The notes under the pieces: model-generated
Told to the model about the DNA's origin: nothing
What the model saw: the letters and a program-made list of their open reading frames with translations, nothing else
Databases searched by the model: none
Translations under genes and position numbers: made by a program
NCBI GenBank assembly: GCA_018399235.1
Contig: JAGYOX010000004.1
Coordinates: 1 to 54,093 of the forward strand
Length of the DNA stretch: 54,093 bases
Direction of reading: 5' to 3'
DNA from: Desulfobacterales bacterium
Lineage (GTDB): Bacteria > Desulfobacterota > Desulfobacteria > Desulfobacterales > Desulfosalsimonadaceae
Shown here: positions 18,574-27,740 of the stretch, in pieces
How the letters are laid out: each line of letters opens with the position of its first letter
How positions within the stretch are numbered: position 1 is the first letter of the stretch

Positions 18574-19581
18574 ATGACCGACCAATGGTCGATTTCTTTT
18601 ACTGTCACCAAGTCGGAAGCGGGTACCCGACTGGATACCCTGATCGCCTCCCACCACCCTGAATTATCAAGAAATATTGTCAGCCGTTTGATCCGGGAAG
18701 GGGCCGTCCGGGTAAACAACCGGACCTGCAAGCCTGCATTCAAAGCTTTAGAAGGAAGCCATGTCACCGGCACGATCACTGCCTTTAAAGATTCGGGGGC
18801 GGCAGATGCCTTGGTGCCGGAATCCATCCCCATTGATATCCTGTTTGAAGACGAGCAATGCCTCGTCCTTAACAAGCCGCCAGGTCTGGTTGTCCATCCC
18901 GCCCCCGGCCATGATCGCCAAACACTGGCCAATGCGCTGATCCACCACCGGCCTGAACTTGACGGTGTGGGAAATATAGCCGGCCGGCCCGGTATCGTTC
19001 ATCGACTGGACAAGGACACTTCCGGTCTTCTTCTGGTGGCAAAATCAGAAACAGCATTTAACCATCTATCTGCCCAGTTTAAAGCGCGGAACGTTGAAAA
19101 AAAATATCTTGGACTCGTCTACGGACAGCCAAAAGGGGAAATCGGCCAAATCAATCTTCCCATCGGTCGCCACACCATTCATCGGAAAAAAATGTCGTCA
19201 TCCCGATATTCAAAAGGTCGAACGGCTGAAACATTATGGCGAATCAAAGCCCGTTATGATCAGATAGCACTTATTGAATACACCATAAAAACCGGCCGAA
19301 CGCACCAAATCCGGGTTCACAGCGCGGCGATAGGCTGTCCGATCATCGGTGATTCCGTCTATGGCATCAACAAACCCCATCGGTTCCTAAAAAATAACCG
19401 AAAACTGGCGTCTGTGATTCGTTCCGTCAACCGTCAGATGCTGCATGCCTGGCAGATTCAATTCGCCCATCCAAAAACCGGGGGATCCATTTTTATTGAA
19501 GCCCCGCCCGCCCCGGACATGGCATCCATAATTAAAGCACTGAACGCAATATTCCCTGATCAAGCCTTCACACTAATATAA
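18574..19581 (+). CDS. rluD: RluA-family 23S rRNA pseudouridine synthase (RluD-like)
   Basis: A 335-residue protein with an N-terminal S4 RNA-binding domain (residues ~10-75, TRLDTLIASHHPELSRNIVS) and a RluA catalytic domain. The motif GIVHRLDKDTSGLLLVAK (about residues 141-158) carries the catalytic Asp. KTGRTHQIRVHSAAIGCPI is also conserved. RluD modifies helix 69 of 23S rRNA in E. coli; the exact target here is inferred. Its 3' end overlaps the convergent Rieske-like gene by 22 bases. Confidence 0.92.
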   Translation: MTDQWSISFTVTKSEAGTRLDTLIASHHPELSRNIVSRLIREGAVRVNNRTCKPAFKALEGSHVTGTITAFKDSGAADALVPESIPIDILFEDEQCLVLNKPPGLVVHPAPGHDRQTLANALIHHRPELDGVGNIAGRPGIVHRLDKDTSGLLLVAKSETAFNHLSAQFKARNVEKKYLGLVYGQPKGEIGQINLPIGRHTIHRKKMSSSRYSKGRTAETLWRIKARYDQIALIEYTIKTGRTHQIRVHSAAIGCPIIGDSVYGINKPHRFLKNNRKLASVIRSVNRQMLHAWQIQFAHPKTGGSIFIEAPPAPDMASIIKALNAIFPDQAFTLI

Positions 19582-19979
19582 AGCCGATCCTCCGACTTCA
19601 TCACCGGCAAGGTTTTTACCGATTCTTTGGCCGGTCCGGACATCACGCCACCGCTGTAATCATAGGTCGACCCCAGTACGCTGCAACATCTAATGGTTTG
19701 GGTATCAGGCAGGGGATCAAGCCGCCGACCCATATGTGAACATCGATTATAAATCGCATGGAACTGCTGATCGCCCCCATTAAATACCAGGATTCGCTCG
19801 GGAAGCGCTTTTTTCTCCAATCGAATGGCACCAAATGGAACAAATAACTCCGGCGTGCGGTTTAGGTCGATTTCGATCCGCCCGCCCTCATACGTCCAAC
19901 TCTGATTGTCAGCCGGCGGCCGAGTACCGCAGATCCCGAAAAGGCGTTTAAAAACCCCCATAGGTTTTAACCCTTCCAT
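19560..19979 (-). CDS. Degenerate Rieske-type [2Fe-2S] domain protein
   Basis: A 139-residue soluble protein with a Rieske ferredoxin-like domain (residues ~34-135). The first cluster motif is intact: CSHMG, with Cys80 and His82. The second should read CxxH-G-S but is C99-S-V-L102-G-S, so the second His ligand is Leu (codon CTG). The downstream TYDYSGGVMSGPA region still fits the fold. A normal [2Fe-2S] cluster with two Cys and two His cannot form, unless the neighbouring Cys98 substitutes. Its start overlaps the upstream hypothetical gene by 13 bases, so the two are translationally coupled. Function unknown. Confidence 0.75.
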   Translation of the reverse strand: MEGLKPMGVFKRLFGICGTRPPADNQSWTYEGGRIEIDLNRTPELFVPFGAIRLEKKALPERILVFNGGDQQFHAIYNRCSHMGRRLDPLPDTQTIRCCSVLGSTYDYSGGVMSGPAKESVKTLPVMKSEDRLYISVKA

Positions 19980-20524
19980 TTGAGTTCAAGTGTGCATCGC
20001 TTTTTGGTTTTGTCAAAAGTCATAACGATTTCCTGATCATCCCCCTTGTTTCTGGACAACTCCCTGTATCTCTGCTTAATCCGATTTTCGAATTCGGCTT
20101 CAGACTCCTGGCATCCGGCACCCATCTCATCCAGCTTCTTCTGTTGGAGCTGCCAGTAGGAGCGTAGCGACGAAGACTTGTCTGATTCAGTTTCTTTCGC
20201 CGCATTTGGCGATGTACTACCAAATGCCCGCCCCTGCCGATATGCGGCCTCTGCATTTTCCCACAGCTGCTGCCAGGCTTTTTTATGATAAAAGAGCTTC
20301 CACTGGAGGTTGTCAAGCATTGTTTTAAGCTGCTTGGTCGACAATGCCGCGGGTATCCGGTATCTTTGGATCTTTTCAATCAGCTCGTGATGCCGCGGGT
20401 GGGGTTTGTTCTGCCGGTCTGAGAGGTAAGCCCGAAGCTTACCATCCATGGCATCGACCTCTCGATCCAGGCGTCTCAATTCGTTCTCAACCGTTTTTTG
20501 CTCTTGATCTGTTAATATAACCAT
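19967..20524 (-). CDS. Hypothetical coiled-coil protein
   Basis: A 185-residue charged protein. Residues ~1-40 and ~110-165 are heptad-like helices (LTDQEQKTVENELRRLDREV; EFENRIKQRYRELSRN). The middle is Gln/Trp rich, and the end, TFDKTKKRCTLELKWKG, looks like a beta hairpin. No signal peptide or membrane segment is seen, and I do not recognise the family. AAGGTGG before the ATG supports translation. It forms a two-gene unit with the Rieske-like gene. Confidence 0.7.
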   Translation of the reverse strand: MVILTDQEQKTVENELRRLDREVDAMDGKLRAYLSDRQNKPHPRHHELIEKIQRYRIPAALSTKQLKTMLDNLQWKLFYHKKAWQQLWENAEAAYRQGRAFGSTSPNAAKETESDKSSSLRSYWQLQQKKLDEMGAGCQESEAEFENRIKQRYRELSRNKGDDQEIVMTFDKTKKRCTLELKWKG

Positions 20525-20837: not shown

Positions 20838-22928
20838 CTAAACCCGGGCCTGATCCGGATCATAGCAGAGTCGACAACAATGCAGACAGCGATTGGCCTC
20901 TCGGAGGGCGCTCTCCTCGCTGATCACCAGATCCACCTCATCAAAGTTATCGATCCGTTCAGACACGGGGATTTCAGGTGCCTCAACCCGATCGGTTTTT
21001 TCAATACCTAGCACCGAATCAAAAATCGTTTCCTCAATATGTTTATTAAGGATTGCCTTTGGCTGCGGTACAACCGGCTTGCCTTTCAGAAAAAGATCGA
21101 TTGAGCGGGCCGCTTTCCGCCCCCCACCAATGGCATCCACAACCAGTGCCGGGCCTGTTGCCGCATCACCAGCTGCAAATATATAGGGTACATTGGTCTG
21201 ATGGGTAGCTGGATCGACTTCAAAGGTATTCCACCGGGTCCAGGAAATATCATCCAAACGATCGCCTTTCCCCCTGAATTCCGCAGAAGGGGACTGCCCG
21301 ATGGCGGTAATAATCATATCCACATCCAAGACGGTTTCAGAGCCCTCAATCGCTACCGGCCGTCGTCTCCCGCTGGCATCGGGCTCACCCAGTTCCATTT
21401 TCAAGTATTCAAGGCCCGTTACCCGCTCTTGGTCATCACCGGTCACCCGGTTTGGCGAAGCCAGGAAAATAAATTCTATCCCCTCATGTTCAGCGGCTTC
21501 GATTTCCACGTCATTGGCAGGCATTTCCTTGCGGGTCCGCCGGTAAACCAGATGGACTTTGTCGCATCCTTTACGAACGAGCGTACGGGCACAGTCGATC
21601 GCCGTATTGCCACCGCCAATGACAGCCACCCGTTTGCCGATCGTCAGCGGCTCTTCATTGCCGATTCTGGATAGAAAATCAATGCCCGTGTAGCAGCCGT
21701 TCAATTCCTCACCGGGGATCTTCAACCGATAATCATTCCACGCTCCGATGCTGAAGAATATAGCATCAAAACCGGCGGCAATCAGGGCGCCAAACTCAAA
21801 ATCCCGTCCAAGCCGGACATTGGTGTGATGTTCAATGCCCAGGTTTAATATCCCTTCAATCTCCCAATCGAGTACTTTTTTTGGCAACCGGTATTCCGGT
21901 ATGCCATATCTCAGCATGCCGCCTAACTTTGGCATGGCCTCAAAAATACTTGCACGATGTCCGGCACGCTGCAAAAAGTAAGCACAGCTCAATCCGGCAG
22001 GGCCGCCACCGATGACGGCTACCCGTTTTCCGGTATCCGGTGCCTTCCCAATTGGAATGCGATTACCGGAATTCATTTCGTAATCAGCAACAAACCGCTT
22101 CAAATGGTTAATGGCGACAGGCTCATCCTCAATTCCTCTGCGGCACCAGGATTCACACGGATGCGGACATACGCGGCCGCAGGCGAGCAGCAAAGGGTTA
22201 CGCTCCCGTATAGTATTAACGGCTTCTTCATATTCGCCATGCCTGATATGCTGAATGTATCTGGGGATATCAATTTCCGCCGGACATGTTTGGGCGCACG
22301 GTGCCAAGGCATCATCTTCGGCATTCAGATGAAGCAGACGATCGGTCATGGTCCGGACTTTTAAAATCGGCTTCGGGCAAGCCCTTTCACATGCCCCGCA
22401 GCCGACGCATTTTTCCTTGTTAATCACCGGATAGCCATTTTCGCCCATTTTTATGGCATCAAAACCGCATGCCCGAATACAGTCGCCGAACCCTAGACAC
22501 CCGATCCAACAATCCCGCTTTCCCCCATACAGTGAGGCAACCGCCTTGCAACTGTTTAGCCCATTATAATAGAAACGATCGGTTGCCCGGCTGCCGCCTT
22601 CACAATCGTTAAAAGATTTCAGCGGTTCGGCGGATCCAGCTTCCAGGCCCATAATTTCGGCGATTTTATCCACATTTTCTTTACTATCCAGGATACAAAC
22701 GTTCGGCGGCGCTTCACCTTTAACAACGGCTTCTGCAGCTGCGGAACAGCCGGCGTAGCCGCATCCTCCACAATTAGCGCCAGCCAGAAGATTTTCGACC
22801 TTGGCAATTCGCGGGTCCTCATAGACATAAAAAATACGGGAAGCAAAGCTCAGTGCCAGCCCGATGATTAAGCCAAGCCCTAAAGTAAAAAGAACAGATT
22901 CAAGCAAAACTTTCCTCTTTATATTCAA
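20838..22928 (-). CDS. rnfB: RnfB fused to a GltD/NfnB-like FAD-NAD(P)H oxidoreductase
   Basis: A 696-residue fusion; ordinary RnfB is far shorter. Residues 1-195 are RnfB: one membrane helix (~10-33), the four-Cys motif C53/C56/C61/C78 (NCGGCGYAGC), then two [4Fe-4S] motifs (C140-C154 and C174-C184). Residues ~205-660 are a full glutamate-synthase small-subunit-like module: N-terminal Cys residues 211, 215, 250, 254, 258 and 262; FAD motif GGGPAG (307-312); pyridine-nucleotide motif GGGNTAIDCART (438-449); VYRRTRKEMPA typical of NADPH-using members; and C-terminal GDAATG. A Cys cluster CLHCCRLC ends the protein. RnfB passes electrons to or from ferredoxin on the cytoplasmic face. The fused part should exchange hydride with NAD(P)H. 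It is the last gene of the operon, before a terminator. Confidence 0.93.
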   Translation of the reverse strand: MNIKRKVLLESVLFTLGLGLIIGLALSFASRIFYVYEDPRIAKVENLLAGANCGGCGYAGCSAAAEAVVKGEAPPNVCILDSKENVDKIAEIMGLEAGSAEPLKSFNDCEGGSRATDRFYYNGLNSCKAVASLYGGKRDCWIGCLGFGDCIRACGFDAIKMGENGYPVINKEKCVGCGACERACPKPILKVRTMTDRLLHLNAEDDALAPCAQTCPAEIDIPRYIQHIRHGEYEEAVNTIRERNPLLLACGRVCPHPCESWCRRGIEDEPVAINHLKRFVADYEMNSGNRIPIGKAPDTGKRVAVIGGGPAGLSCAYFLQRAGHRASIFEAMPKLGGMLRYGIPEYRLPKKVLDWEIEGILNLGIEHHTNVRLGRDFEFGALIAAGFDAIFFSIGAWNDYRLKIPGEELNGCYTGIDFLSRIGNEEPLTIGKRVAVIGGGNTAIDCARTLVRKGCDKVHLVYRRTRKEMPANDVEIEAAEHEGIEFIFLASPNRVTGDDQERVTGLEYLKMELGEPDASGRRRPVAIEGSETVLDVDMIITAIGQSPSAEFRGKGDRLDDISWTRWNTFEVDPATHQTNVPYIFAAGDAATGPALVVDAIGGGRKAARSIDLFLKGKPVVPQPKAILNKHIEETIFDSVLGIEKTDRVEAPEIPVSERIDNFDEVDLVISEESALREANRCLHCCRLCYDPDQARV

Positions 22929-22990: not shown

Positions 22991-23566
22991 TTATACCATT
23001 CCTTTGAAGGCGAAAAATGCCAAGGAAATGACCCCGGCGGTTACCAAGCCGATTGATGTATCCTGCAGCGGCTTTGGAACGCGGCCAAGGATAACCCGTT
23101 CCCGGACCCCGGTAAACAAAATCAAGGCGAGTCCGAACCCAACCGCATAGGCAATTGACGAAATCAACGCTTCCACAAAGCTAAATTCCTCCTGCACGTT
23201 GATCAGGCAGACACCCATAACAGCACAATTGGTGGTAATCAATGGCAGGAATATACCAAGACCGGCATATAAGGCGGGAATGCTCTTTTTAAGAAACATT
23301 TCAACGAACTGAACAAGGGATGCAATGACCAGGATAAATGCGATGGTTCTCAGGAATTCAATGCCAAGTCCGACAAGAAAATAAGTATTAATAATCCAGG
23401 TAATAATACCGGCCATGGTCAGCACGAAAATAACCGCCATGGCCATGCCCACGGCTGTCTCCATTTTTTTGGAAGTGCCAAGAAACGGACAGTTCCCCAG
23501 GTATTGTGCCAACACAATATTGTTTATAAATATGCAACTGATAATCAGAACAAAAATGTCGCCCAT
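22991..23566 (-). CDS. rnfA: Rnf complex membrane subunit RnfA
   Basis: A 191-residue protein with six membrane helices, homologous to NqrE/RsxA. It carries the conserved Cys motifs in helices (NCPFLGTSKK at residues ~25-34 and TTNCAVMGVCL at ~111-121), which coordinate the intramembrane [2Fe-2S] cluster together with RnfE in solved Rnf/Nqr structures. RnfA passes electrons across the membrane between RnfD/G and RnfB. Length and motifs are normal. It lies between rnfE and the rnfB fusion. Confidence 0.95.
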   Translation of the reverse strand: MGDIFVLIISCIFINNIVLAQYLGNCPFLGTSKKMETAVGMAMAVIFVLTMAGIITWIINTYFLVGLGIEFLRTIAFILVIASLVQFVEMFLKKSIPALYAGLGIFLPLITTNCAVMGVCLINVQEEFSFVEALISSIAYAVGFGLALILFTGVRERVILGRVPKPLQDTSIGLVTAGVISLAFFAFKGMV

Positions 23567-23599: not shown

Positions 23600-24193
23600 T
23601 TATCGGCTTCCGGCCAAGTTCATCAAGCAAAGCATCAACCCTAAACAAACAAATGCCCCCGGCGCCTCAACCATGAATGTAAAGGGTTCAAATGAGGGGC
23701 CAAAAACCTGCATCCCGTAAAAGGTTCCTTCGCCCAACACTTCCCGAACCGCCCCAAGCGCAGACAGCGACAACGTAAACCCGATACCGATGCCAAGTCC
23801 ATCAGCTACTGAGAACACCGGATTATTCTTGGAGGCAAACGCTTCGGCCCTTCCGAGAACAATACAGTTGACAACGATCAGGGGGATAAAAATACCCAGC
23901 TGAAGATACAACGGATAGGCGAATGCCTGCATCAGCAGCTCAACCACGGTAACAAATGTCGCAATGATGATAATAAAACAGGCGATCCGGATTTTTGACG
24001 GGATCACGTTTCGTAGCATTGATACCAGAAAATTTGAACAAACAAGCACGAACGTCGTTGCTATTCCCATTCCCAGACCGTTTTCAACCGATTTTGTCAC
24101 TGCGAGCACTGGGCAGAGCCCGAGCACCAGACGAAACGGCGGGATTTCCTCCCATAAGCCTTTGGTAAATTCCTGAGCCAGCGTTTTTGCCAT
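23600..24193 (-). CDS. rnfE: Rnf complex membrane subunit RnfE
   Basis: A 197-residue six-helix membrane protein (NqrD/RsxE family). The paired Cys motifs are in LGLCPVLAVTKS (residues ~24-35) and VVNCIVLGRAEAFAS (~107-121), the counterparts of the RnfA cluster ligands. It is the partner of RnfA in the intramembrane electron path. It follows rnfG after 15 bases and precedes rnfA. Confidence 0.95.
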   Translation of the reverse strand: MAKTLAQEFTKGLWEEIPPFRLVLGLCPVLAVTKSVENGLGMGIATTFVLVCSNFLVSMLRNVIPSKIRIACFIIIIATFVTVVELLMQAFAYPLYLQLGIFIPLIVVNCIVLGRAEAFASKNNPVFSVADGLGIGIGFTLSLSALGAVREVLGEGTFYGMQVFGPSFEPFTFMVEAPGAFVCLGLMLCLMNLAGSR

Positions 24194-24208: not shown

Positions 24209-24802
24209 CTAGCCGGAAAAACTGGATAGCTGTTGTTTAATTTGCGGTTTAGCTTTCTCATACAGGTCTCCGGCCCTTCTAACCGCCGTGCATACCGCCC
24301 GGGATGTGATGGTGGCACCGGACATGGCCGTGATATCACCGCCATCCTTTTTAACCTTGGTCTCAGTGCCTATGGGCACGCCCTTGAACTGACTCTTGAA
24401 ATCCTCATGTGTCTCAACGCGCGCGCCCACACCCGGCGTTTCATTATGGGTGGTGACACTGACACCATGGATTTTTCCTGTTTTCACATCCACGGCAACC
24501 ATTACCCCGACATCACCGCCGTAACCGCCGCCCTTGGTTTCGAACGCCACCACCTTTGGCACCCCTTCAAACACGCCGACAAAAAAATTTTTTTCCTCTT
24601 CATCGACCGGAATCGCAAACCGATCATTAATCGGGTTGTTGGTAGCACCCTCCAAGATCTTCTGAATGGCCGGCCCTTTGACGAATTTAAGCACCTGGCT
24701 GTCGATACGCTCCTGCGTGTTATTGCGTATGGCGGCCAGCAACCCGCCGGAAAGGCTGCTTAAAACTGTCAGTACGATGACCATTTTTATCATTTCACGC
24801 AT
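24209..24802 (-). CDS. rnfG: Rnf complex FMN-binding subunit RnfG
   Basis: A 197-residue protein with one N-terminal membrane helix (residues ~5-25) and a periplasmic FMN-binding domain. The flavinylation motif SGATITS (residues 161-167) is intact, with Thr164 the expected FMN-linked residue. ATG 24802 is chosen because GGGAG lies just upstream and the ATG overlaps the rnfD stop by eight bases; a start at 24844 would add 14 non-conserved residues. As RnfG faces the periplasm, it is the most likely contact for the octahaem cytochrome. Confidence 0.93.
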   Translation of the reverse strand: MREMIKMVIVLTVLSSLSGGLLAAIRNNTQERIDSQVLKFVKGPAIQKILEGATNNPINDRFAIPVDEEEKNFFVGVFEGVPKVVAFETKGGGYGGDVGVMVAVDVKTGKIHGVSVTTHNETPGVGARVETHEDFKSQFKGVPIGTETKVKKDGGDITAMSGATITSRAVCTAVRRAGDLYEKAKPQIKQQLSSFSG

Positions 24803-25763
24803 AATTGACTCCCTTTCGCAAGGTCCTGGGTCGGATTTTATCAATGAGCGGATTGATGATATTAATCACCAGGATGGCAAAAATTACGCCATCGATATGG
24901 GTCCCGATGTTACGGATAAGCACCGTTAAAAACCCGCCAAGAACCCCATAGATCAGCATCGGTATAAAATTCACCGGGGAGGAGGAGTCTTCCGTAGCCA
25001 GATAAAACGCACCGAACAAGGAATATCCCGTCAGGAGGTGGAAACTGCCGCTGGCGTATACCTCCGGGTTGGCTTGATGAAAACAAAATGCCGTGACAAA
25101 CATCCCCACGATAAAAGAAATAGAAATCTCCCACCGGATATAGCCCCGAAGCATGAGATAAGCCCCGCCGATGATCAGGCCCAGCACGCAGGAGGTTCCG
25201 ATACCGCCGACTTGACGCCCGAGCAAAAGATCCACAGAGTTAAATCCTTCAACAGCCCCCGTCCCGAATGACTTGGCCAGCACCAGCGGATAGACCGGGT
25301 TGAAATCAAACTGATAGCTTACCAGCGCCTCATTGAAATCAAAATAACCGCCCCAGGAAAGCATCAATACCGCCATGGCCAAAACTGCCGGTTGGAAGGG
25401 ATTGCCGCCAATCCCGCCATAAATCTGTTTGCCGATAACAATGGTAAAAAACGTCCCCACCAGGATAACCCACCAGGGGGTGATAGCCGGCAGCATCATG
25501 GCAAACAGCATGCCCATCAATGCCGCGTTGCCATCACCAATGGAAACAGGCCGGCGGGTCAGAAAATTCATTATGAGCTCCCATATCATGGCTGAGGCGA
25601 TAGAAAGCGTCACCACCGAAAGCGCAGGGATACCGTATCTTAAAAGGCCGGGGATCACCGCCAGCAGAGTCACCAGCAAGATATTGTAGTTCTTTAGTGA
25701 AATCCGGCTGCCGTTATGCCAGAACGAGGCATGGGAAACCGTCAGTTTGATAGGCTCAGGCAT
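24795..25763 (-). CDS. rnfD: Rnf complex membrane subunit RnfD, lacking the flavinylation Thr
   Basis: A 322-residue NqrB/RnfD-family membrane protein with about nine to ten helices; NPFQPAVLAMAVLMLSW and GCVLG-like helices fit the family. The usual covalent-FMN motif (S/T-G-A-T) is here T168-G-A-V171, so the acceptor Thr is Val; no other S/T-G-A-T is present. The protein is otherwise full length. Its start overlaps the rnfC stop and its stop overlaps rnfG by eight bases, so translation is coupled. The missing residue could mean that FMN is not bound, or is bound non-covalently. Confidence 0.9.
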   Translation of the reverse strand: MPEPIKLTVSHASFWHNGSRISLKNYNILLVTLLAVIPGLLRYGIPALSVVTLSIASAMIWELIMNFLTRRPVSIGDGNAALMGMLFAMMLPAITPWWVILVGTFFTIVIGKQIYGGIGGNPFQPAVLAMAVLMLSWGGYFDFNEALVSYQFDFNPVYPLVLAKSFGTGAVEGFNSVDLLLGRQVGGIGTSCVLGLIIGGAYLMLRGYIRWEISISFIVGMFVTAFCFHQANPEVYASGSFHLLTGYSLFGAFYLATEDSSSPVNFIPMLIYGVLGGFLTVLIRNIGTHIDGVIFAILVINIINPLIDKIRPRTLRKGVNYA

Positions 25764-27039
25764 TGCTTTCCTCCGCTTTCATGACCTCCAAACTATGTTT
25801 GGCCAGCTTGATATGTTGAAAAATCGGTATTCGGGACTCACAGACGAATTCGCAAAGACCGCATTCGATGCATGCACCGAGTTCGGCGTTGGCTTCCGCC
25901 TCTTCGTAATGCTCGGCTTCGAGTAATCGGACCAAAACGTTTACCGGAATATTGACCGGACAGATCCGGACACATTCCCCGCAGTTTATGCAGGCCACGT
26001 CCAACCTCTCGGGAATCTGGGTCCGGTCCTGAATCATTATGGTGTCCGTATCCGGTTGAACCGGATGATCCAGGGTATAAACCGACACGCCGGTCATGGG
26101 GCCGCCGAAAATGACCCGATCACCGTCCTGGACCGTTTCATTGAACCTATTAAGTATATCCCTCAAGGGGGTGCCAATGGTTGCGCAAACCAGCCGTTTA
26201 TTGCCGTTTTTGGAAATAAGGGTTATCAGTTTGTTCATCGGAAGCTGACCGGTGTTGAATGCGGCCCCCATAGCGGACACCGCTTCGGCAGAAAAAAACG
26301 CCACATCGGCATTGCCGTCAGCGTCTCCTGCTTTTATCTCATCAGCCAGCACATGCCTGACGATCAGTTGCGGATGCGCTGCCGGGTATTCCGAATCCAC
26401 GGTTTTCACGCCGGCTTCTGAGGCGCCGGCTACCTGCACCAAAGATTCTGGAACCGCCAGCACCACGTTATGGATGCCGGTGATTTTACGCAGGATATCA
26501 ATCCCGGTTTTTATCGATTCAATGCCGGTTTTTACAAAAAATTGATTGGTGATGGATAGTAAATCCCTGTCGACGCCTAAAACGACGATGGCCTTGATTT
26601 GCTTGTCAGAGTCGAAGAAAGGCGAAAAATCCGGTTTGCCGGGAAGCGCGTGAAGAAATCTTTGGGCGACCTCAAGGCTCGGTGTTTGACTCTGTTCTTT
26701 GAATTCATCGTCTACCGCCTTGTTGGCTTCTGCATCAACGGCGACCGTTACAGCCGTCATCTTTGCCTGCATCATGCCAATAAAAGGAGAAATATCGGTA
26801 ATTTTACCGACTTTGCTGGCCAACGCATAATCCTTTGCATCAGCGGTAACCTGAATCCGCTGGCCGTTTTTTACCTGATCCCCGACGGAAAGTTTGAGGT
26901 CACCGGATCTATCGACCGGCGTATCAAGGAGGAATCGGATTTTTTGTGGTGCCTGAATATAAACGGGTTCGGCCTGGGTATCCGTTATAGGCTCGTATGT
27001 CAGCTTTGGTTTAATAAAGCCAAAAAATGATCTTTTCAT
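25756..27039 (-). CDS. rnfC: RnfC-like subunit without the NADH/FMN-binding motifs
   Basis: A 427-residue protein. The N-terminal barrel-sandwich part (residues ~25-100), the SLBB-like part (~270-320, IGTPLRDILNRF, FGGPMTG) and two C-terminal [4Fe-4S] motifs (C350/353/356/360 and C390/393/396/400) are those of RnfC. The family's glycine-rich loop (GIVGxGGAxFPTHVK), its NGAECEPYLT segment and the YPxGxExxLI segment are not there. The corresponding places read EVAQRFLHALPGKPDFSPFF, VVLGVDRDLLSIT and EYPAAHPQLIV. In ordinary Rnf this subunit oxidises NADH through FMN; this copy probably cannot. It follows the cytochrome gene after 65 bases. Confidence 0.9.
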   Translation of the reverse strand: MKRSFFGFIKPKLTYEPITDTQAEPVYIQAPQKIRFLLDTPVDRSGDLKLSVGDQVKNGQRIQVTADAKDYALASKVGKITDISPFIGMMQAKMTAVTVAVDAEANKAVDDEFKEQSQTPSLEVAQRFLHALPGKPDFSPFFDSDKQIKAIVVLGVDRDLLSITNQFFVKTGIESIKTGIDILRKITGIHNVVLAVPESLVQVAGASEAGVKTVDSEYPAAHPQLIVRHVLADEIKAGDADGNADVAFFSAEAVSAMGAAFNTGQLPMNKLITLISKNGNKRLVCATIGTPLRDILNRFNETVQDGDRVIFGGPMTGVSVYTLDHPVQPDTDTIMIQDRTQIPERLDVACINCGECVRICPVNIPVNVLVRLLEAEHYEEAEANAELGACIECGLCEFVCESRIPIFQHIKLAKHSLEVMKAEESNA

Positions 27040-27104: not shown

Positions 27105-27740
27105 CTAATACCCGTGGCACTGATTACAATCCGAGTGGGTAGGGCCGGCACCGAAATTTTCATGGCAATTCATACATTGGGTATGAAACGCCTCAGTACG
27201 GTTTCGAATGCCATGGCATCCGGTACATTCAGCGCGGGTCGGTCCCACACCGAAGTTATCGTGGCAGCCAATACACTGCTTATGAAAAGCGTCTTTTCTG
27301 CCGGGCATCATATCGTTGCCCATCCCCCGCTGATGACAAACCGTGCAGGGCTGCGGCGCGCCAGTGTCACCCTGCTGGTAGTTATGGTGACAATCATTAC
27401 AATACAGACCGTAATCTTGAGCATGGGCATCGTGATTGAATATACCTTTTTCGCCCAATGCCGGCTGATGTTTGGTATCAGGAGTATGACACTGGCCGCA
27501 TGAATCCGGTGACTCTTTTTCAGATGCTTGATAGGCGTGATGGCAGTCCTCACAATACAGTCCGTAGGATTCGCTATGGTTCTGATGATCAAAGAGGACA
27601 TCGTTGCCCGTAGCCTTAAACATCTTCCGAACAGGGGTTTCCGGCGCTTTTGCCGGAAGCACGGTGTATCCCAGCACACCGACAACCAGACAGACAACGA
27701 TCAACCCATACGCCAATTTCAGTTCGTTTTTCGAAGTCAT
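27105..27740 (-). CDS. Membrane-anchored octahaem c-type cytochrome of the rnf operon
   Basis: A 211-residue protein with an N-terminal membrane anchor or signal (LAYGLIVVCLVVGVLGYTVL, residues ~9-28) and eight CxxCH haem sites: CEDCH, CGQCH, CNDCH, CTVCH, CIGCH, CTGCH, CMNCH and CNQCH. Extra His residues (FDHQNH, FNHDAH, AFHKQ, AFHTQ) are likely sixth ligands, as in class III cytochromes c3/c7. The chain is built from two internal duplications. It would sit on the periplasmic face and move electrons between soluble cytochromes and the Rnf complex. Cytochrome genes beside rnf are known in sulfate reducers. AAAGGAA precedes the ATG. Confidence 0.93.
   Translation of the reverse strand: MTSKNELKLAYGLIVVCLVVGVLGYTVLPAKAPETPVRKMFKATGNDVLFDHQNHSESYGLYCEDCHHAYQASEKESPDSCGQCHTPDTKHQPALGEKGIFNHDAHAQDYGLYCNDCHHNYQQGDTGAPQPCTVCHQRGMGNDMMPGRKDAFHKQCIGCHDNFGVGPTRAECTGCHGIRNRTEAFHTQCMNCHENFGAGPTHSDCNQCHGY

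Follow-up and report, generated by a model that had tools for sequence, protein, structure and literature searches.

The window, by which we mean the whole 54,093-nucleotide stretch of DNA analysed here, encodes a complete Rnf complex of the Tol2 type, its RnfB being about 700 residues long with an NAD site and its RnfC lacking an NADH site. We place the complex in a known type because the Tol2-type fusion was reported in 2016 (PMC5109826). Our preferred proposal, held tentatively and at somewhat short of even confidence, is that the electron input of this Rnf has been swapped, such that NADPH would enter and electrons would leave through RnfG, probably to an eight-haem cytochrome. A more elaborate version is possible if more doubtful, namely that the six subunits form a one-way ion pump from NADPH to a periplasmic cytochrome, convergent with NQR, with a new cluster between the two halves of RnfB and with the NAD+ output and the return flavin of RnfD both lost. 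The pairing of a putatively NADPH-oxidising module at the entrance with a lost NADH exit site suggests a pump that consumes NADPH and exports the electrons. Rnf in sulfate reducers is usually written as a ferredoxin:NAD+ oxidoreductase, and NADPH reoxidation and energy conservation in completely oxidising sulfate reducers are, to our knowledge, unsettled. Should the fused complex indeed accept NADPH and lack an exit to NAD+, energy balances based on ferredoxin:NAD+ would be wrong for much of the Desulfobacterales, and there would be a second way of rewiring Rnf beside NQR.

The fused rnfB gene and its operon

Window positions 20838-22928 are taken up by one open reading frame, consisting of 696 codons and a stop, with a TTG start at 22928; an initial annotation had described this frame as uninterrupted, which we confirm, and had left out its strand, which is minus. 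All six subunits, rnfABCDGE, are recognised by Pfam/NCBIfam in one seven-gene minus-strand operon that runs cytochrome c, rnfC, rnfD, rnfG, rnfE, rnfA and, last, the rnfB fusion, with the following features.

20838..22928, minus strand: rnfB fusion gene, 696 aa, TTG start (ORF and Pfam/NCBIfam)
22341..22928, minus strand: RnfB part, residues 1-196, with membrane helix, FdI (cluster ligands C53, C56, C61 and C78), C109/C127 and FdII dicluster (C140-C184); no FdIII
20841..22322, minus strand: predicted StnC/NfnABC-type module, residues ~203-696, with Fer4_20, FAD (GGGPAG) and pyridine-nucleotide (GGGNTA) Rossmann folds and C-terminal RCLHCCRLC tail
22991..23566, minus strand: rnfA (Pfam/NCBIfam)
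23600..24193, minus strand: rnfE (Pfam/NCBIfam)
24209..24844, minus strand: rnfG, SGAT covalent-FMN motif kept; matches NCBIfam RnfG_DVU2794 above cutoff
24795..25763, minus strand: rnfD, 322 aa, lacking the covalent-FMN motif (DxxS/TxAT)
25756..27039, minus strand: rnfC, which retains two [4Fe-4S] motifs and a predicted RnfC fold over its whole length; FMN/NADH motifs GxGGAGFP and NxxECEP absent
27105..27740, minus strand: multihaem cytochrome c with eight CxxCH motifs and an N-terminal signal or membrane anchor; opens the operon

Within the fusion, Pfam/NCBIfam searches place an RnfB FeS domain at residues 48-79, ferredoxin motifs at 143-186, Fer4_20 at 209-287 and Pyr_redox_2 at 302-602, and the NAD(P)-binding family NF009410 scores 524 bits, just above its cutoff of 516. 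The domain matches and the motifs GGGPAG (FAD), GGGNTA (pyridine nucleotide) and YRRTRKEMPA, all of which are present, bear out the earlier view of an FAD and pyridine-nucleotide module that is apparently complete. Relatives have identical gene order and a full-length fusion, with rnfB shifted ahead of the cytochrome gene in some. On its 3' side the fusion is followed by the gene for a conserved 185 aa protein with no Pfam match (window 19967-20524, minus strand), which adjoins rnfB in many near relatives, and by that for a Rieske-type protein (window 19560-19979, minus strand).

A survey for homologous fusions, suggested earlier as a check, found full-length or near-full-length matches, counted once per genome, in at least 150 of the 291 genomes of the class. 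The fusion is therefore conserved, and this breadth rules out an assembly error as its source. The locus sample comprised 80 fusion loci with 61-87% identity.

The flavin module and the RnfB domain that it replaces

An AF2 model of the fusion, built with 58 sequences (pLDDT 87, pTM 0.84), gives the module the fold of the large subunits of NfnABC and StnABC, with Z scores of 42.0, 40.9 and 40.7 over 467-487 residues; the best match (Z 42.0, rmsd 1.6, 467 residues) covers model residues 206-686 and includes the C-terminal tail. Weaker matches are obtained with classical NfnL (Z 32) and GltD (Z 28-31). The C-terminal segment 654-684 of the fusion aligns by sequence with the N-terminal residues 13-42 of NfnL (4ylf_B), and the RCLxC cluster segment lies at the far, C-terminal end of the fusion, as it does in StnC and NfnABC. 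Moreover, residue 277 is lysine in all 116 fusion sequences and is equivalent to the StnC cluster ligand K170, a position at which NfnB has glutamate according to PMC10482914. Judged by predicted fold and residue conservation, the module is of the StnC/NfnABC type and not of the NfnB type; a plain GltD/NfnB module was rejected on account of the Z score of 42 for StnC/NfnABC against 28-32, and of Lys-277 in place of Glu. The NADPH half of the earlier assignment is strengthened by these closest structural matches, which handle NADPH, and by analogy with them a preference for NADPH over NADH may be expected.

Of 58 non-redundant fusions, 48 have undamaged FAD and NAD(P) motifs. The pyridine-nucleotide site is degenerate in L188, L189 and L193, three fusions that lie within rnf operons, and their module may have turned structural. 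The genome of the window carries, on contig C242 and outside any rnf operon, a second full-length RnfB-GltD fusion (L130:7365-9461) that is 37% identical, has a degenerate pyridine-nucleotide site and is accompanied by an RseC/MucC ORF at L130:6825-7301. Copies similar to this fusion, likewise with a degenerate NAD site, occur at L186, L195, L202, L204 and L209, and an RseC-like ORF also adjoins the L186 copy.

The RnfB part was compared by sequence, the whole-fusion fold search having tested mainly residues 206-651. Its 14 cysteines are kept in 44 of 44 unfused and 57 of 57 fused RnfB, with C109 present in 56 of the 57. Beyond residue ~187, unfused RnfB continues into a linker with two cysteines (44/44 and 43/44) and then, in most cases, into one or more extra ferredoxin motifs; in the fusion the linker and the FdIII domain are missing and the flavin module stands in their place. 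A soluble ferredoxin has been modelled at the far cluster of the third ferredoxin domain of RnfB (PMC9588780), and the flavin module, as alignment indicates, replaces this modelled ferredoxin-docking end. The statement in the initial annotation that all RnfB cluster motifs are present holds for FdI, FdII and C109/C127 and fails for the linker cysteines and the third ferredoxin domain. Its broader idea, that one subunit joins ferredoxin and NAD(P)H chemistry, survives insofar as RnfB and an apparently intact FAD/NAD(P)H module form one polypeptide, encoded within a complete operon and conserved across the class; the ferredoxin half fares poorly, the module occupying the place of the modelled docking domain.

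An Nfn-like reaction had also been suggested. In such a scheme RnfB would still dock ferredoxin, hydride would be exchanged between the module and NAD(P)H, and the FAD might bifurcate. Such a reaction is possible and we judge it unlikely, being less supported than the NADPH-to-cytochrome reading. FdI and FdII are fully kept, and ferredoxin could dock at FdII; the FAD/NAD(P) motifs are mostly intact, and R347, the counterpart of the NfnB arginine in contact with flavin N5, is kept in 58 of 58 fusions. Nevertheless, R347 alone is no proof of bifurcation, because the FAD of StnC, whose module type is indicated here by K277, is assigned as non-bifurcating in PMC10482914 although the NfnB-type Arg is conserved. 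In addition, the modelled ferredoxin-docking domain is missing, RnfC has no FMN motif to supply a second flavin, the operon encodes no NfnA-like partner, and the genome has a separate NfnAB on contig C118. The presence of this NfnAB also led us to reject the notion that the fusion stands in for a missing Nfn.

Among the fusions C109, C127 and C688 are near-invariant, and C685 or C207 is found in every one of 116 (both in three). This pattern is suggestive of a rebuilt cluster, with C109, C127, C688 and either C685 or C207 as candidate ligands, that would join the RnfB half to the module tail; the cluster is suggestive only, because the tree has only 3-4 changes at the Cys207/Cys685 sites. Exclusivity of Cys207 and Cys685 was rejected as statistical proof, the independent-pairs test being not significant, and is treated as supportive.

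Motif losses in RnfC and RnfD and the path of the electrons

The FMN/NADH motifs of RnfC are absent from 72 of 72 fused operons, all of which keep both [4Fe-4S] motifs, whereas the RnfC of 44 unfused operons has both FMN/NADH motifs in 30 cases, one in 2 and none in 12. Because the fold of the predicted RnfC is kept (Z 29.5-31.7 to solved RnfC, and up to 26.6 to NqrA), it is the site and not the domain that has been lost, and the two cluster motifs kept in all fused operons imply that RnfC is probably still redox active. The covalent-FMN motif of RnfD is likewise absent in 72 of 72 fused operons and is present in 30 of the 32 operons that still have a motif in RnfC (the strict pattern finds 28, and inspection adds L143 and L212; the exceptions are L140, which is truncated, and L150, which has no motif). 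The RnfC and RnfD losses did not figure in the initial annotation. The SGAT motif of RnfG is kept in 68 of 71 fused operons, and a cytochrome ORF with 3-8 CxxCH accompanies 62 of 72, no CxxCH protein being found within 8 kb at 10 of the 72.

We rejected motif loss as a hallmark of fusions alone, since cytochrome-linked operons with unfused RnfB have it too: both losses are present in seven of the seven unfused RnfB operons that adjoin a cytochrome (L137, L138, L149, L152, L154, L157 and L164). RnfC/RnfD losses are seen in L139 and L145 as well. The gene order of the cytochrome-linked unfused-RnfB operons fits that printed for Desulfovibrio, and their usual ferredoxin:NAD+ assignment may be due a second look. 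A tree built from RnfA, RnfE, RnfD and RnfG groups the fused operons with the cytochrome-linked ones and separates both from the canonical set, the base of this group being weakly supported; the losses are shared by descent, and their counts are therefore not independent events. Three unfused operons (L160, L175 and L176) have lost the glycine-rich FMN loop of RnfC while keeping EFEP and the RnfD flavin motif, which is a separate, partial loss. The RnfC motif is kept in L163, L167, L214 and L215, which have a separate NfnB-like gene at the operon 3' end, and in L159, L165 and L169, where that end is occupied by a longer ORF that contains GltD and has an additional Cys-rich part at its N-terminus.

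In the path that we tentatively favour, NADPH would reduce the FAD of the StnC-type module, and electrons would then pass singly through the two [4Fe-4S] clusters of the module, the candidate bridging cluster, the FdII clusters of RnfB and its mobile FdI cluster, reach the [2Fe-2S] site of RnfA/E and arrive at the covalent FMN that RnfG carries on the periplasmic side. Their probable exit would be the periplasmic multihaem cytochrome whose gene opens the operon, and ion movement would be coupled as in other Rnf complexes. Electrons probably do not go back to NAD+, because RnfD is without its covalent-FMN motif and RnfC without its FMN/NADH motifs. We infer the cofactors, direction, acceptor, ion pumping and NADPH preference of this path from the observed gene order, domain content, motif presence or loss, and predicted folds. 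Against the NADPH-to-cytochrome reading stand the fused operons that have no nearby CxxCH protein (10/72), the retention of the cluster motifs of RnfC and the broken NAD site in L188, L189 and L193. A cytochrome exit is also opposed by the almost complete lack of phenotype of a D. alaskensis mutant in dhcA, the cytochrome gene of an rnf operon with unfused RnfB (PMC4215793).

Some of these observations would suit a path in which electrons from NADPH return via RnfD, using a non-covalent flavin only, to the [4Fe-4S] clusters of RnfC and then to some cytoplasmic acceptor or menaquinone. The RnfC fold and both cluster motifs are preserved, 10 fused operons have no cytochrome, and Doerries et al. 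(PMC5109826) deduce for RnfC an acceptor that is not NAD+. We nevertheless regard such a return as quite unlikely, given that RnfD has no covalent-FMN motif, the carrier of the return path in canonical Rnf. Operation in reverse, with an ion gradient driving electrons of the periplasmic cytochrome (from H2 or formate) inward to make NADPH, would need an identical parts list, and Rnf complexes are described as reversible in PMC9588780, but it seems improbable, the genome having another NADPH route in NfnAB and direction not being given by sequence.

Comparison with known systems

The Tol2-type Rnf of Desulfobacula toluolica (Rnf2 of Desulfococcus multivorans) resembles that of the window in having an RnfB of ~700 aa with NAD-binding sites, an RnfC with no detectable NADH site and a cytochrome gene in the cluster. 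Its RnfC is described as lacking NADH domains and its mode of action as unverified (Doerries et al. 2016, PMC5109826, citing Woehlbrand et al. 2016); the proteins of both Rnf types were observed in D. multivorans across the growth tests, except that RnfA2 was seen in only six conditions (PMC5109826). That paper gives no mechanism, and we add the replacement of FdIII, the putative StnC-type module and the loss of the RnfD flavin site, none of which was found in the passages of open-access papers examined. In a 2025 RNF/NQR review (PMC12174285), a term search turned up neither fused nor Desulfo- nor sulfate. In contrast to the description of the Tol2-type RnfC, the RnfC fold is kept here and only the site motifs are lost.

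With StnC of StnABC and the large subunit of NfnABC (8oh5_C, 9bov_A, 9n5u_A) the module shares the GltD-type FAD/NADPH domain, an RCLxC segment on the C-terminal side and the Lys cluster ligand, but in the window it is joined to a membrane-anchored RnfB and not to NuoG/FdhF-like domains. No HydBC-like bifurcating pair was found in the operon; nothing follows the module within the gene, and the genes next to it belong to rnf. NfnB/NfnL and GltD have a similar FAD/NADPH fold (Z 28-32); they differ in an N-terminal position of the RCLxC segment, in Glu for K277 in NfnB and in their partner subunits. Neither an NfnA partner (FAD and [2Fe-2S]) in the operon nor a GltB partner among the annotated neighbours was found.

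Canonical Rnf complexes, such as those of Acetobacterium woodii and Clostridium tetanomorphum, share rnfABCDGE, the FdI and FdII of RnfB and the RnfG flavinylation motif with the window, which differs in having no FdIII, no RnfC FMN/NADH motifs and no RnfD covalent-FMN motif. Na+-NQR is alike in placing a flavin dehydrogenase at the input position and in having an RnfC/NqrA with no NADH site, and the same input swap and loss of the RnfC-type NADH site are described for NQR evolution in PMC4014512. Its input module is unrelated, however; an NqrF-type input subunit is absent from the window, where the input is RnfB with the StnC-type module, and whereas NQR keeps the NqrB flavin and reduces quinone, the RnfC of the window keeps its [4Fe-4S] motifs. 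Two-subunit Nqr/Rnf-like complexes, as described in PMC10979944, share with the complex proposed for the window NAD(P)H input, a flavinylated RnfG-like subunit and an RnfD-like subunit with no flavinylation site, and have been proposed as one-way NAD(P)H-to-outside routes; by comparison, the window has all six Rnf subunits, and with them the RnfB clusters and a cytochrome.
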